Shown here one piece after another: positions 13,176 through 18,305 of a stretch of DNA of 64,000 bases (the first letter of the stretch is position 1; every line of letters starts with the position of its first letter). The notes below the pieces were generated by a model. That model was not told the DNA's origin and ran no database searches. It saw only the letters and a list, made by a program, of their open reading frames with translations. Source of the stretch: a bacterium (GTDB lineage Bacteria > Patescibacteriota > Saccharimonadia > Saccharimonadales > UBA4665); NCBI GenBank assembly GCA_021803105.1, contig JAJZMC010000009.1, forward strand, positions 1 through 64,000, read 5' to 3'. The position numbers and the translations under genes are program-made.

Positions 13176-13556
13176 TTATAAAACTTTAACGTCAATGAAT
13201 TGGCTATATTCTTGGGCGAGTTTTTTGTCAAAAGTAACAAATGTTTGACAATCTTGCATAACAGCACAAGCCACTTGAAGTGCGTCTTCAAAATCATCAT
13301 CTTGATAGTTCTTAGTAGCCCACATTACTTCTTCGATACCAAAATTTGTAAATCGATGTTTAATTAACATATCAAGTAACAAATTAAGTTCTAGCCCATC
13401 TCTCAGACCAAAATAAACAAATAAATGAGCTGACAATGGTGAAATAATAATATCATGTGAACTGACATAATCCTGTGCTTTTATAATATTCTTTCTACCT
13501 TTTAAAATAGTCTCAAGTAAAACATTAGCATCAATAAAAATAACTTCACGATTCAT
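13176..13556 (-). CDS. PIN-domain ribonuclease toxin, possibly degenerate
   Basis: 126 residues with the PIN-domain layout: first acidic residue D9 in IFIDANVLLE, D91 in DFEDALQVACAV, D110 in FVTFDKKLA. PIN toxins are Mg2+-dependent RNases that cleave tRNA or other RNA. The glutamate normally found near the middle (ISxxxxxE) is not evident; the matching stretch reads ISPLSAHLF, with H44. Activity may therefore be reduced or lost. The gene overlaps the upstream antitoxin by 11 bp, typical of co-translated TA pairs, and sits 89 bp before gyrB on the same strand. Confidence 0.85.
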   Translation of the reverse strand: MNREVIFIDANVLLETILKGRKNIIKAQDYVSSHDIIISPLSAHLFVYFGLRDGLELNLLLDMLIKHRFTNFGIEEVMWATKNYQDDDFEDALQVACAVMQDCQTFVTFDKKLAQEYSQFIDVKVL

Positions 13557-13854
13557 AATTACTCTTATATTTTAGATCATCACGAAGCATATCGTGGTAA
13601 TTTTCTTTAATAGACTTATTAGGATTAAGTTTTGATCTACGAGGGATTTTATTAATGGCCCGTACTTGAGAAATATATTCTGTCATAGCCGCCCTACTAC
13701 CAGGTTTTGCTAAATTATTATCTAAAGAATCATCAGGTTGTAAAATAAAAGCTGATTTAGAACGATAAGTTACTCTAATTGATTCACCTCGTCCAACTCG
13801 CTTAACAACCCTATCAAGATTATCTCGAAGCTCTTTTGCTGTAATTGTATTCAT
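13546..13854 (-). CDS. Phd/YefM-family antitoxin
   Basis: 102 residues. The N-terminus MNTITAKELRDNLDRVVKRV with ESIRVTYRSKSAFILQP matches the DNA-binding fold of Phd/YefM antitoxins, which neutralise the partner toxin and repress their own operon. The longer, charged C-terminal half is the expected toxin-binding part. It is the first gene of the TA operon, directly downstream of an array of AGTTTA hexamers that may be its operator or promoter. Confidence 0.87.
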   Translation of the reverse strand: MNTITAKELRDNLDRVVKRVGRGESIRVTYRSKSAFILQPDDSLDNNLAKPGSRAAMTEYISQVRAINKIPRRSKLNPNKSIKENYHDMLRDDLKYKSNYES

Positions 13855-13889: not shown

Positions 13890-13959
13890 CTGTTTGATTA
13901 TTATTGTTGCTCGCCAATAGAAATGTCCGGTTTTGCGTTCAATAGAAATGTCCGGTTTT

Positions 13960-13968
13960 TGGTATGAT
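13960..13968 (+). promoter_or_regulatory. Extended -10 promoter of the transposase
   Basis: TGGTATGAT (TG-N-TATGAT) lies just inside the inner left terminal repeat, 25 bp before the transposase ATG. No good -35 is present. A strong AGGAGG ribosome-binding site follows at 13983-13988. Confidence 0.45.
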
Positions 13969-13993
13969 CCTATTTAAAAAATAGGAGGATTTA

Positions 13994-15307
13994 ATGCCAG
14001 AAATAATAAGGTTATCTCAAAAAGAACTGAACCAAGTTAGTGTCATAAAACAAGTAGCTGAAGGTAAACTCAAGCAAATAGAAGCAGCTGAAAGTTTAAA
14101 TATAACAGACAGACAAATAAGAAGGCTACTCAATAAATATAGAGATGAAGGTAATAAAAGTTTTGCTAGTAAATTAAGAGGCAGACCTAGTAATCACCAA
14201 CTGGATAAAAGTTTTAAAGATAAAGTAATTAAGTTAGTTAAAGACAAATACCCAGACTTTGGTCCAACCTTTGCAGCCGAGAAACTTAAGGAATTGGACG
14301 GTATTAGTATATCTGTATCTACTTTAAGACGCATAATGGTAGATAATGACGTTTGGAGAGAAAAAAAGCATAAGAAACCTATTCACAGAACCAGGAGACC
14401 TAGGCGTTCATGCTATGGGGATATGGAACAATTTGACGGCTCAAGCCATGACTGGTTTGAGGGTAGATATAACCATGGTGAATATACTACATTACTAGCT
14501 AGTATTGATGATGCTACGTCTATAGTTAATGCTTGGTTTAGTGACTATGAAGGGACTGTGCCTGTTATGAAGTTCTGGTGGGGGTATTTTGAGAAATATG
14601 GTAAACCTCACAGTATTTATCTAGATCGTCACAGCACATACAAAATTAACTCTAAAAATGCACTAGATAATGACAGCATCGTATCTGAATTTACTAGAGC
14701 CATGAAAGAATTAGGTGTACAGGTTATTAATGCAAATAGTCCTCAGGCTAAAGGAAGAATAGAAAGATTATTTGGAACCCTGCAAGACAGATTAGTAAAA
14801 GAGCTCCGCCTCGCAGGTATTAATAATCCTAATGACGCCAATAAATTTTTGCAAGCTTATTTACCTAGATTTAATGCCAGGTTTAACGTTGAGGCTACCA
14901 GTAGCACAGATACTCACGTTATGTTATCTAAGCAGTACGATCTTAACTCAATCCTATCTGTTCAGTCTGTACGCATTGTTAGTCGTGACTTTGTGGTTAG
15001 CTTTAAGAACCATTGGTATCAACTATCTAAAGATCAGCCTACTACAGTTTATCCTAATAATAAGGTAATCATTGAAGAGAGGTTAAATGGTAATTTATTG
15101 ATACGTCTCAATAGCAAGTATCTAGACTACACTAAGCTAAACATTAAACCACGAAAACCTAAAATACTAGCCCCAGCTTTAGCCCCTAATCCTGCTAAAA
15201 GATCCTATAAGCCACCAGCTACTCATCCGTGGAGAAGTATTAGGTTATTACCCTACAATATTAGTAATAGACCAAATCAAACACCACCATCAAAGAAAAT
15301 TACTTAA
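13994..15307 (+). CDS. ISNCY-family DDE transposase
   Basis: 437 residues. The N-terminal helix-turn-helix region (QIEAAESLNITDRQIRRLL) recognises the element ends. The rve/RNase-H-like core shows the family hallmark QFDGSSHDWFEGR. The catalytic triad is readable as D148 (QFDGS), D211 (YLDRHS) and E257 (KGRIERLFG), and NSPQAKGR precedes the glutamate as in relatives. The reading frame is complete with an ideal AGGAGG ribosome-binding site, so the enzyme may be active. The basic C-terminus (RKPKILAPALAPNPAKRSYK) is typical. It is one of the few plus-strand genes in the left third of the window. Confidence 0.93.
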   Translation: MPEIIRLSQKELNQVSVIKQVAEGKLKQIEAAESLNITDRQIRRLLNKYRDEGNKSFASKLRGRPSNHQLDKSFKDKVIKLVKDKYPDFGPTFAAEKLKELDGISISVSTLRRIMVDNDVWREKKHKKPIHRTRRPRRSCYGDMEQFDGSSHDWFEGRYNHGEYTTLLASIDDATSIVNAWFSDYEGTVPVMKFWWGYFEKYGKPHSIYLDRHSTYKINSKNALDNDSIVSEFTRAMKELGVQVINANSPQAKGRIERLFGTLQDRLVKELRLAGINNPNDANKFLQAYLPRFNARFNVEATSSTDTHVMLSKQYDLNSILSVQSVRIVSRDFVVSFKNHWYQLSKDQPTTVYPNNKVIIEERLNGNLLIRLNSKYLDYTKLNIKPRKPKILAPALAPNPAKRSYKPPATHPWRSIRLLPYNISNRPNQTPPSKKIT

Positions 15308-15349
15308 AAACAAATCCGGACATTTCTAAAAATTTAAATCCGGACATTT

Positions 15350-17599
15350 CTACTGAATTTCAACATTGGTTGAATTAGGGGATTTTGTAGATATTAATTT
15401 TTCTCTTTTAGTTTTGGTAACTAAATACATACTTTCACTGACTATTGGATGTACTTCAGAGATTTTCTGATACATTGTAGGAATTATTTCTTGAAAATTT
15501 AATCTCTCTTTAGATAATTTTGAAAATAAGTTAGTATCTAAAATGTTTGTCGCATTGTAACTAAACCTAAATCTATTTTTATGCCCAATTAAAGTGATAT
15601 ACTGTGCTTCTGTATTATACTTATTCTCAGTTAATAAACTATGTAATTTTAAACTATCGTAAAAGTTTTGTTCATATAAAGATGTTAAGCCTGCATCTTC
15701 GATATTTTTGTCTATTTTAAAACCGTATCTTGGAGTTAGATTTTGCCAAGATAAATTATTTAATATATTTAACTCTTGCATTGTTCTTAGTACTTGAAAG
15801 TCGCAAAGAAGATCCCAATTATAACTAATCTTTTTTAATGTTTGTTTGTTAATTAATTTATTTGTTAGGTATTGTTTTAAGGTATTACTTTTTACATCAT
15901 AATCCCAATTATTAACTACATTTTTAAGTCTTTTCATGTCGATTGAGGCATTAGTATACAAAAGATCTGGTACAATATCTAATTCATTCTTAGGATAGTA
16001 TTCCACTAGATTAAGTTCAGTGTCGTTATTGTCTAATGATTTTTCATTTGATAATTTATTTATAACTTCGGTCATGTATTGATTTGTATTAGGGTCTGTT
16101 AACTTTAATTTATTATCAGTAAAGAGGGTTTCGTCTTTTAAGTAAGAGTCATCGTATTCTTTCAGTTCTTCTAAAAGATTAAATCCAAATTGCTTTATTT
16201 CAGCTATAGGGTCATTTAAAAATGATGCTACTATATTTTTTATCGCACCAATAGGTATAACAATGAAAATAGTTGTTTTGGTTGCAATTGGTAGCATATT
16301 TTTAGTTATATGATAGCTAGTTTCCTGTAACTGCTCACTACTCAACTTTTTCGGATTATAGGTAGTTAGATATTTGAATAGTTTATCATTGACATCTTCA
16401 TACTGATTATATATACCGTCCATTATTTTTATATACTGTTTCTTAATCTCAGGTTTTAGTATTTCTGGGATAAAATATGGATAAGAATTTTTAGGTATAG
16501 AGTTGTTGAAAGGAAATTTTTCTTTAGTTGATTGTTCGTAATAAAAATCATTATTATTTAGTTCTAATTCTATTTTCTGTTTTAATAAATACGATGCATT
16601 ATCCACTATGGCGTATAGGTGTGATATTTCCTTAATTGGTTTATTGGTGAATATCTGATTATTTTTGTTTAATTTAGTCAACGTATCTAGCAATATTATT
16701 TTAAAATTATCAGAGCTTTGATTAATTTTAGAAATCGACGGTGTAATGATACTTGAATTAATATTCTTTTTAAATAAATATAAGTTACTTTTGTTATTTA
16801 TAAATAACTTATCTAAAAGTTGTTTGCCGTGGTTAGTTATATGTTTATCTCCTGAACTTGTTTTATCGATTAACGGTTTATGGTTTACTAGATTATTTTC
16901 TCTAATAAGTGGTGGACTTGAGGGTGGAATAATAGATGTTATTAAGTTTTCATGTGTATTTGAGCTATAGTTTTTATCAAATACAGGCACTATTTTCTGC
17001 CAGATTTGATGAGTAGTTAAATCAATATCGCTAGTAGCAAAAATTATTGGGTAATTGCGTTGATGAGCTTCCCATAAATATCCTGCTCTTATTCTTTCGA
17101 TAATAACATCATCTGCTAAGTTATTTTTTAAACGTTCCTTTAATGTATTGGTTGGTGCATCTAAAATAATACATATGTCTGGTTCAAAATTATTATTTGA
17201 ATAATTTATGATTTGATTCATTGTATTGTAATCTATGAAATCAGTAGTTTTAGCATAGTATAAATTTATTAGAGTTGTTAAAAAATTTCCATCAACTAAA
17301 CAATTAATTCCTAGGTCGATATTTTGTTTTATTATTTGGAGTGTTTGAGATCTAGCAGCGTTGTATAACAAAAACTCAGTTCTTGAATTCATTTTATAGT
17401 TCGGGTCTTTAATTATACGTTGAATTGTTCTAGCGGTTAAATTAATTTGGCTATCAGGTTCAGTAAATATTTTAACAGGTAATCCGATGGATAATAGCTT
17501 ACTATATAAAGCTTGTAATTGAGTTGTTTTTCCTACACCATGTGGGCCTTCTATTACAATATAACGGCCTTGTGATTTATTATCATAATCTTTAGTCAT
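15350..17599 (-). CDS. Thymidylate kinase fused to a two-module ThyX-like region, 3' end cut by the IS
   Basis: 749 residues from the ATG at 17599, which overlaps the dcd stop by 8 bp; the longer ATG at 17641 would sit inside dcd. Residues ~10-210 are a dTMP kinase (P-loop EGPHGVGKTT at 17-26; later LIDGNF- and RIRAGYLW-like elements). After an unstructured linker (~215-280), residues ~290-749 resemble flavin-dependent thymidylate synthase in two modules. The first has DFYYEQSTKEKF, YFIPEILKPEI and NMLPIATKTTIFIV; the second has CDFQVLRTMQELN and LTPRYGFKIDKNIEDAGL. The RHR flavin/dUMP signature of ThyX is not intact in either module, so synthase activity is uncertain. The TAG stop is formed by the first three bases of the IS end. 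The kinase assignment is firm; the ThyX assignment is by eye. Confidence 0.72.
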   Translation of the reverse strand: MTKDYDNKSQGRYIVIEGPHGVGKTTQLQALYSKLLSIGLPVKIFTEPDSQINLTARTIQRIIKDPNYKMNSRTEFLLYNAARSQTLQIIKQNIDLGINCLVDGNFLTTLINLYYAKTTDFIDYNTMNQIINYSNNNFEPDICIILDAPTNTLKERLKNNLADDVIIERIRAGYLWEAHQRNYPIIFATSDIDLTTHQIWQKIVPVFDKNYSSNTHENLITSIIPPSSPPLIRENNLVNHKPLIDKTSSGDKHITNHGKQLLDKLFINNKSNLYLFKKNINSSIITPSISKINQSSDNFKIILLDTLTKLNKNNQIFTNKPIKEISHLYAIVDNASYLLKQKIELELNNNDFYYEQSTKEKFPFNNSIPKNSYPYFIPEILKPEIKKQYIKIMDGIYNQYEDVNDKLFKYLTTYNPKKLSSEQLQETSYHITKNMLPIATKTTIFIVIPIGAIKNIVASFLNDPIAEIKQFGFNLLEELKEYDDSYLKDETLFTDNKLKLTDPNTNQYMTEVINKLSNEKSLDNNDTELNLVEYYPKNELDIVPDLLYTNASIDMKRLKNVVNNWDYDVKSNTLKQYLTNKLINKQTLKKISYNWDLLCDFQVLRTMQELNILNNLSWQNLTPRYGFKIDKNIEDAGLTSLYEQNFYDSLKLHSLLTENKYNTEAQYITLIGHKNRFRFSYNATNILDTNLFSKLSKERLNFQEIIPTMYQKISEVHPIVSESMYLVTKTKREKLISTKSPNSTNVEIQ

Positions 17600-18305
17600 A
17601 AAGTAATCCTGGTATTTTAATCGGTAAGCTACGTTTATCATTATATGCCATGGGTAGCATTTTATCTGGAGACCATGTTTTAATAATTTGATTAATCTCG
17701 GTTCCTTGCTGGTATTTACCGGAGAAATTATTATCCCGTCCTAGACCATAATTACCCTCAACTGTTCCTGTTTCGTGAAAAATAATTTGAGCAATACGTT
17801 CACCAATCGGTATTAAAATAGTTTCTCGTTCATTTAAATTAAAAATTTCTAGTGTTAAGCGATTAATATAACCTGGATCAATCCAACCTGCATCAAAACA
17901 CACAGCTATACCATTTCTCCCCCAACTTGATCGTGAACGCACTTCACATGCTCCTGGTGGTATGATACCAAAAAACTCATGAGTATGAGCTAATATTCGT
18001 TCTTTCGGTTTAAGACTGATAACTGGATGCTTTAAAGGAATATTTGTAACAGGCTTAAATCTATTCAAATCACTCCATTCTTCGTGAGATATAGCTTTAT
18101 ATGGACCATCAAAATATCGTTCAACATCGTCTTGATCAAAAGGATTATATATTGTTCTTTCATCAAGTTTTTCAATACGATAATAATAATTTCCGAGAGT
18201 AACATCTAAACTAGCATGAGAAACATGCTTACTAATATAAGGACGACATATAATATGTCCACTTTCAATAGCTTCAATTATTTGTTTATTTGAATAAACT
18301 CCCAT
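17592..18305 (-). CDS. dcd: dCTP deaminase (Dcd/DUT family)
   Basis: 237 residues, slightly longer than the usual ~190 because of a C-terminal extension (INQIIKTWSPDKM...). The family core is clear: YISKHVSHASLDVTLG, PPGACEVRSRSSWGRNGI, FDAGWIDPGYINRLTLEIFN and PIGERIAQIIF. The enzyme converts dCTP to dUTP (bifunctional members go on to dUMP), feeding dTMP synthesis. It is the first gene of a unit with the tmk/ThyX-like fusion, whose ATG lies inside the end of dcd, implying translational coupling. That makes a compact dCTP-to-dTDP module. Confidence 0.9.
   Translation of the reverse strand: MGVYSNKQIIEAIESGHIICRPYISKHVSHASLDVTLGNYYYRIEKLDERTIYNPFDQDDVERYFDGPYKAISHEEWSDLNRFKPVTNIPLKHPVISLKPKERILAHTHEFFGIIPPGACEVRSRSSWGRNGIAVCFDAGWIDPGYINRLTLEIFNLNERETILIPIGERIAQIIFHETGTVEGNYGLGRDNNFSGKYQQGTEINQIIKTWSPDKMLPMAYNDKRSLPIKIPGLLYD

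Follow-up and report, generated by a model that had tools for sequence, protein, structure and literature searches.

A synthase-dead thymidylate kinase-ThyX fusion overlapping dcd in a Saccharimonadales genome: a candidate pseudoenzyme of the dTTP-supply operon

Introduction

Why would a bacterium with a genome of 810 kb keep, overlapping its dCTP deaminase gene, a long thymidylate kinase-ThyX fusion whose synthase half has lost its catalytic residues? The question is raised by a locus in a Saccharimonadales genome of the UBA4665 lineage (GCA_021803105.1), which we studied in a window of 64,000 nucleotides (contig JAJZMC010000009.1, positions 1 to 64,000, forward strand). An earlier note on this window had described Dcd overlapping a fusion of dTMP kinase with a double ThyX, and had proposed either a new catalytic variant or a degenerate synthase linked to the kinase for another purpose.

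Results

Both minus-strand genes are present as described. The dCTP deaminase gene dcd (17592..18305, minus strand) encodes 237 aa with preserved motif regions; it matches the Pfam DCD profile at 1.9e-32, scores 94.6 bits against the TIGR02274 equivalog profile (cut-off 92.8) and aligns at 68-83% identity with the Dcd of 15 relatives, and nothing notable sets it apart from TIGR02274 dCTP deaminases. The open reading frame behind it was called at 15350-17641 (minus strand, 763 aa). The overlap between the two genes is real, but its length depends on the start codon: the first methionine gives 50 nt, whereas Met15 (17599) gives 8 nt, ATGACTAA (17592..17599, minus strand), in which the start of the fusion overlaps the stop of dcd. 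Met15 is the likely start because relatives most often have the identical 8-nt spacing, seen in 39 intact copies and in the degenerate copies of genomes G001, G003 and G005; the fusion gene thus probably occupies 15350..17599 (minus strand).

An insertion sequence with terminal inverted repeats in tandem pairs (13915-15357), carrying a transposase gene (13994-15307, plus strand; HTH_32 and rve_3 matches), provides with its right end the final codons and stop of the fusion gene. Truncation by this element is ruled out as the cause of degeneration, since it touches just the last few codons. Adjoining it is a toxin-antitoxin-like pair (13176-13854, minus strand) of a PIN domain and a Phd/YefM-type antitoxin, the latter below the Pfam cut-off. 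Anti-phage defence was also considered for Dcd and the kinase and rejected: Dcd has no PADLOC match, and the matches of the fusion are weak and confined to the P-loop kinase part.

The fusion begins with a thymidylate-kinase domain (16979..17569, minus strand; ORF residues 25-221), identified by Pfam, fold and motif table. It matches Thymidylate_kin (PF02223) over residues 30-211 (2.7e-16; 60.2 bits, cut-off 27) and is predicted to adopt the TMK fold (TMt mostly 0.82-0.91), and Foldseek lists for the fusion are dominated by thymidylate kinases. Its P-loop, GPHGVGKTT (pattern GxxGxGK[ST]; residues 32-40, 17522-17548), is retained. Alike in P-loop and fold, the domain nevertheless differs from known thymidylate kinases in falling below the TIGR00041 cut-off (63.7 bits, cut-off 83.25) and in lacking two arginines. 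The DR motif reads DGN at residues 117-119, with arginine replaced by glycine at residue 118 (17288-17290), a position that aligns with Arg90 of Aquifex TMK, the residue changed to alanine in the solved structure 5xb5 (R90A); the LID arginine is lost as well, its alignment column holding a gap. Of 27 kinase positions invariant in intact fusions, 22 are kept. Judging from these residues, the kinase of the window fusion is probably impaired.

The C-terminal half consists of two degenerate ThyX modules on the minus strand, module 1 at 16049..16840 (residues 268-531) and module 2 at 15407..16015 (residues 543-745). This half escapes a plain profile search because its Pfam ThyX score lies under the cut-off (Thy1, PF02511: 14.3 bits, 0.035; cut-off 24.8), and no match of the long ORF to TIGR02170 was reported at E up to 1. 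The profile check proposed for the ThyX assignment thus fell short with PF02511, but full-length homology was found through the tandem form: residues ~268-745 are homologous to the genome's own intact tandem ThyX (BLAST 4e-54, 25% identity over 517 columns), and a profile of degenerate copies matches the tandem ThyX of Patescibacteria with probability 100 and E 3.5e-42. Homology therefore spans the whole C-terminal 490 residues. The AlphaFold model of the fusion is confident (mean pLDDT 80.6, many ThyX blocks above 90), with a ThyX half that is predicted to be ordered. Direct hhalign comparison of module 1 with module 2 yielded nothing useful.

What distinguishes this half from ThyX as defined by PF02511 and TIGR02170, besides having two modules in one kinase-fused chain, is the loss of RHR and of other conserved dUMP/FAD residues. 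Neither module keeps RHR, as the earlier note had seen; residues 623-625 (15767-15775) read ELN. On the dUMP/FAD side, module 1 has EQSTKE for EQSTRY and K447 for the arginine of R-x2-LP, NAR has become NAT, and the LR...GH site of module 2 carries S707 for R and R713 for H. In all, 79 of 229 ThyX residues invariant in intact fusions are kept. Such retention is bimodal, at least 93% in intact full-length fusions and at most 34% in degenerate ones, and among the degenerate copies that of the window ranks highest.

The architecture itself is not exotic. The window query matches 56 of 60 relatives, most of them with a full-length TMK::ThyX-ThyX of about 740-815 aa behind dcd, and an order-wide survey of Saccharibacteria-type MAGs agrees: this is the order's usual dTTP-supply operon, and the oddity is the window copy. 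(A contig scan with the degenerate protein as query found no relatives; alignment of Dcd did find them.) The relatives' fusions (for example G006, G011 and MAG loci L100-L175) share gene and domain order with the window fusion, are mostly 32-42% identical to it and in many cases have the identical 8-nt overlap, whereas they usually retain RHR, EQSTRY and the DR arginine, in genomes with no other synthase. The two-module ThyX is likewise present as claimed, but it is not special to this locus. Standalone tandem ThyX (open frames of about 460-605 aa) is the commonest ThyX form in our phylum sample, where fusion to a kinase occurs only in members of the order. Standalone copies (P0003, G000:C2) have the same two-module layout as the window fusion; unlike it, they have no kinase and keep the catalytic motifs, and they are without the fusions' P-R-x-G motif. 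Where the tandem form is intact, module 1 holds the R-x2-LP arginine and, found only there, the dUMP-type motif EQSTRY, while module 2 holds N-x-R, the LR..GH residues and, again only there, RHR; judged by conservation, the modules look complementary. Among intact fusions, the same tandem ThyX is joined to either of two very different kinase types, REPDSQSDLTARA/DRN in L046 and L047 and FDFPQY/NRFTGSNMAHQG in L048 and L082; both types are mixed within one family, and a kinase swap is possible. A literature search, with subscription journals mostly outside its scope, found no paper on the TMK::ThyX-ThyX fusion or its decay.

The genome holds, apart from the fusion, a complete standalone tandem ThyX with RHR and all motifs (G000:C2:65 kb) and a separate standalone tmk (G000:C5:40 kb); no thyA was found in it. 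The fusion is thereby ruled out as the sole functional synthase, and the search for another thyA or thyX, which the earlier note had proposed, counts against reading it as a functional synthase at all. Together with the motif loss, these genes support a degenerate synthase linked to the kinase for another purpose, and they speak against the suggested channelling of dTMP within the window protein; as a hypothesis, such channelling is still reasonable for the relatives' intact fusions.

With SH-aLRT support of 100, the standalone ThyX of this genome clusters with the standalone tandem copies of G169 and G186, which belong to another family of the order and both also have a degenerate fusion. The simplest reading of this grouping would be that the standalone tandem ThyX spread horizontally. 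In G169 (L186:3503-8080), three genes lie in succession: a standalone tandem ThyX that is intact, dcd, and a degenerate fusion of kinase and ThyX. Within the window's genus, G001 and G002 carry a phage-type ThyX (phrog_85, 2.4e-66) directly upstream of tmk and overlapping it, a replacement cassette for dTMP supply (L038:2813-4404 and L039:356-1946). In G010, G034 and G037 thyA is present, and horizontal gain of thyA has been reported for groundwater Patescibacteria (PMC12455944). No ThyX, ThyA or above-cut-off thymidine kinase was detected in G003, G004 and G005 (84-94% completeness), which retain tmk and the degenerate fusion (L040, L042, L044) and, in G003 and G005, whose contigs cover it, dcd; either dTMP is imported in these species or the synthase lies in unbinned DNA. 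The P-loop of the standalone tmk reads GAGTTT, with Lys replaced by Thr, in G000 (L036:5946-6578), G001 (L038:3745-4404) and G002 (L039:356-1012), and GAGKTT in the related tmk of G003-G005; GAGTTT would be an unusual P-loop, if the enzyme is active.

Decay of the fusion recurs in several related lineages. Of the 24 genomes with a degenerate fusion, 19 have another synthase, against 4 of the 72 whose fusion is intact (Fisher 5e-12, an optimistic value that treats genomes as independent, on counts tallied by hand, genome by genome); in the remaining five of the 24 none was seen. On the Dcd tree the degenerate label takes 7 changes, at least 3 of them forced by starred branches. Within the window's genus, the window Dcd is sister (92/89) to that of G006, whose fusion is intact, but a single degenerate clade there is not rejected (p 0.56). 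Degenerate copies are frequently shorter, about 500-690 aa, and about 20 of them have an open ORF. Dcd is the only partner still intact and adjacent for most of them, the exceptions being G010, G034, G146 and G207, with G037 and G159 at contig ends. In two congeneric genomes, G180 (L197:4582-6264) and G205 (L198:4457-5975), only dcd and the kinase are left; the ThyX half has been dropped entirely and so is dispensable there. The recurrence of decaying copies across several related lineages suggests a job other than catalysis.

Selection was measured on the sister-species copies of G003, G004 and G005, the window copy having no close relative in the sample. Between G003 and G005, whose copies are already without the ThyX and P-loop residues, dN/dS of the fusion comes to 0.17 along the full chain, with similar values in its three thirds; between G003 and G004 it is 0.04 over the C-terminal 232 aa. 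In the same test Dcd gives 0.04 and tmk 0.18-0.26. The doubly dead chain is thus under purifying selection in these species.

To ask which residues persist, we scored 232 invariant ThyX positions as retained in the window's genus (at least 3 of 4 copies) and in the other degenerate copies (at least 13 of 18). Forty positions are retained in the former and 31 in the latter, and 24 are common to both (hypergeometric 3e-16). The shared positions lie nearly all in module 2. On the minus strand of the window they include P-x-N-E (residues 550-553, 15983..15994), Q-x3-P-R-x-G (residues 633-640, 15722..15745), Y-x2-L-x-G-H-x2-R (residues 681-690, 15572..15601; shared form Y-x2-L-x-G-x3-R) and H-P (residues 731-732, 15446..15451), together with K584, Y607, F660, S663, L666 and S668. 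Arg638 is invariant in intact fusions and present in 90% of degenerate ones and 4% of standalone tandem ThyX. When residues were picked independently of the degenerate copies, fusion-specific positions showed no excess retention overall (p 0.55-0.89), with a trend to retention in module 2 alone (p 0.03-0.07); preferential keeping of fusion-specific residues is therefore unsupported overall and serves as a lead only. The retained set is likewise a lead to a second site rather than proof of one, and fold constraint explains part of it.

Discussion

Our best explanation, which we regard as somewhat probable, is that the window fusion is a pseudoenzyme that persists as a non-catalytic partner in the dTTP operon. 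Its ancestor would have been the order's normal bifunctional TMK::ThyX-ThyX, of which the window copy would be the synthase-dead descendant. Catalysis would have passed to a standalone tmk and to a standalone tandem ThyX whose type also occurs in a distant family of the order, and the dUMP/FAD site of the fusion would have been lost afterwards. The fusion, overlapping dcd, may then have been kept because one part, chiefly the core of module 2, does a non-catalytic job; the likeliest is that of a structural or regulatory partner to dTTP-supply enzymes (Dcd and/or the kinase), with a second nucleotide pocket possibly involved. While we infer the order of events and the non-catalytic role from the comparisons above, we can only guess at partner and ligand. 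The missing ThyX half of G180 and G205 and the five genomes that combine a degenerate fusion with no other synthase count against this reading, and a further counter-point is that the retained residues may be a fold core only.

That counter-point leads to the alternative that survives best: a redundant enzyme may be slowly decaying after replacement genes came, with conservation reflecting the old fold only. The replacement ThyX and tmk in the genome, the kinase arginines already gone, the missing ThyX half of G180 and G205, the shortened degenerate copies and the lack of overall excess retention of fusion-specific residues would all fit such decay. But if the chain were merely redundant, one might not expect open frames in some 20 degenerate copies, low dN/dS between sister species whose copies were degenerate already, or the 8-nt coupling to dcd kept in the window and in G001, G003 and G005, and we consider slow decay rather unlikely. 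A second alternative is that what has been retained is the kinase activity, with the ThyX half serving only as a structural scaffold, such as a dimerisation platform. Many degenerate copies (G010, L171, L177, L178 and others) do keep 25-26 of the 27 kinase positions, and the window domain has its P-loop and modelled TMK fold, yet the window DR arginine is glycine, the P-loop and DR motif are both gone in the degenerate copies of G001, G003, G005 and G037 while the G003/G005 chain remains under purifying selection, and the kinase persists without any ThyX half in G180 and G205; this makes the scaffold idea doubtful, and more so than slow decay. A new ThyX variant making dTMP without RHR, the earlier note's other reading, could draw on the retained fold and on G003-G005, yet it is very improbable, because an intact tandem ThyX and a separate tmk are both encoded elsewhere in the genome, degenerate copies occur together with another synthase, and, of the catalytic-type residues that the fusion and standalone tandem ThyX have in common, nearly all are gone and no replacement is shared.

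Returning to the pseudoenzyme reading, we tentatively speculate that Saccharibacteria may repeatedly have turned TMK-ThyX into a pseudoenzyme subunit that regulates or scaffolds Dcd and dTTP supply through a second site in module 2, a site older than the loss of the synthase and maybe nucleotide-sensing. One order of ultra-small bacteria spans intact, synthase-dead, doubly dead and ThyX-less forms, and so offers several apparent natural replicates of the conversion of an enzyme into a pseudoenzyme in an essential pathway. For such genomes this is a warning that domain layout alone cannot tell whether a thymidylate synthase is present. More broadly, the decay hints that an essential bifunctional enzyme harbours a further, non-catalytic function, for which the residues retained in module 2 supply candidates.
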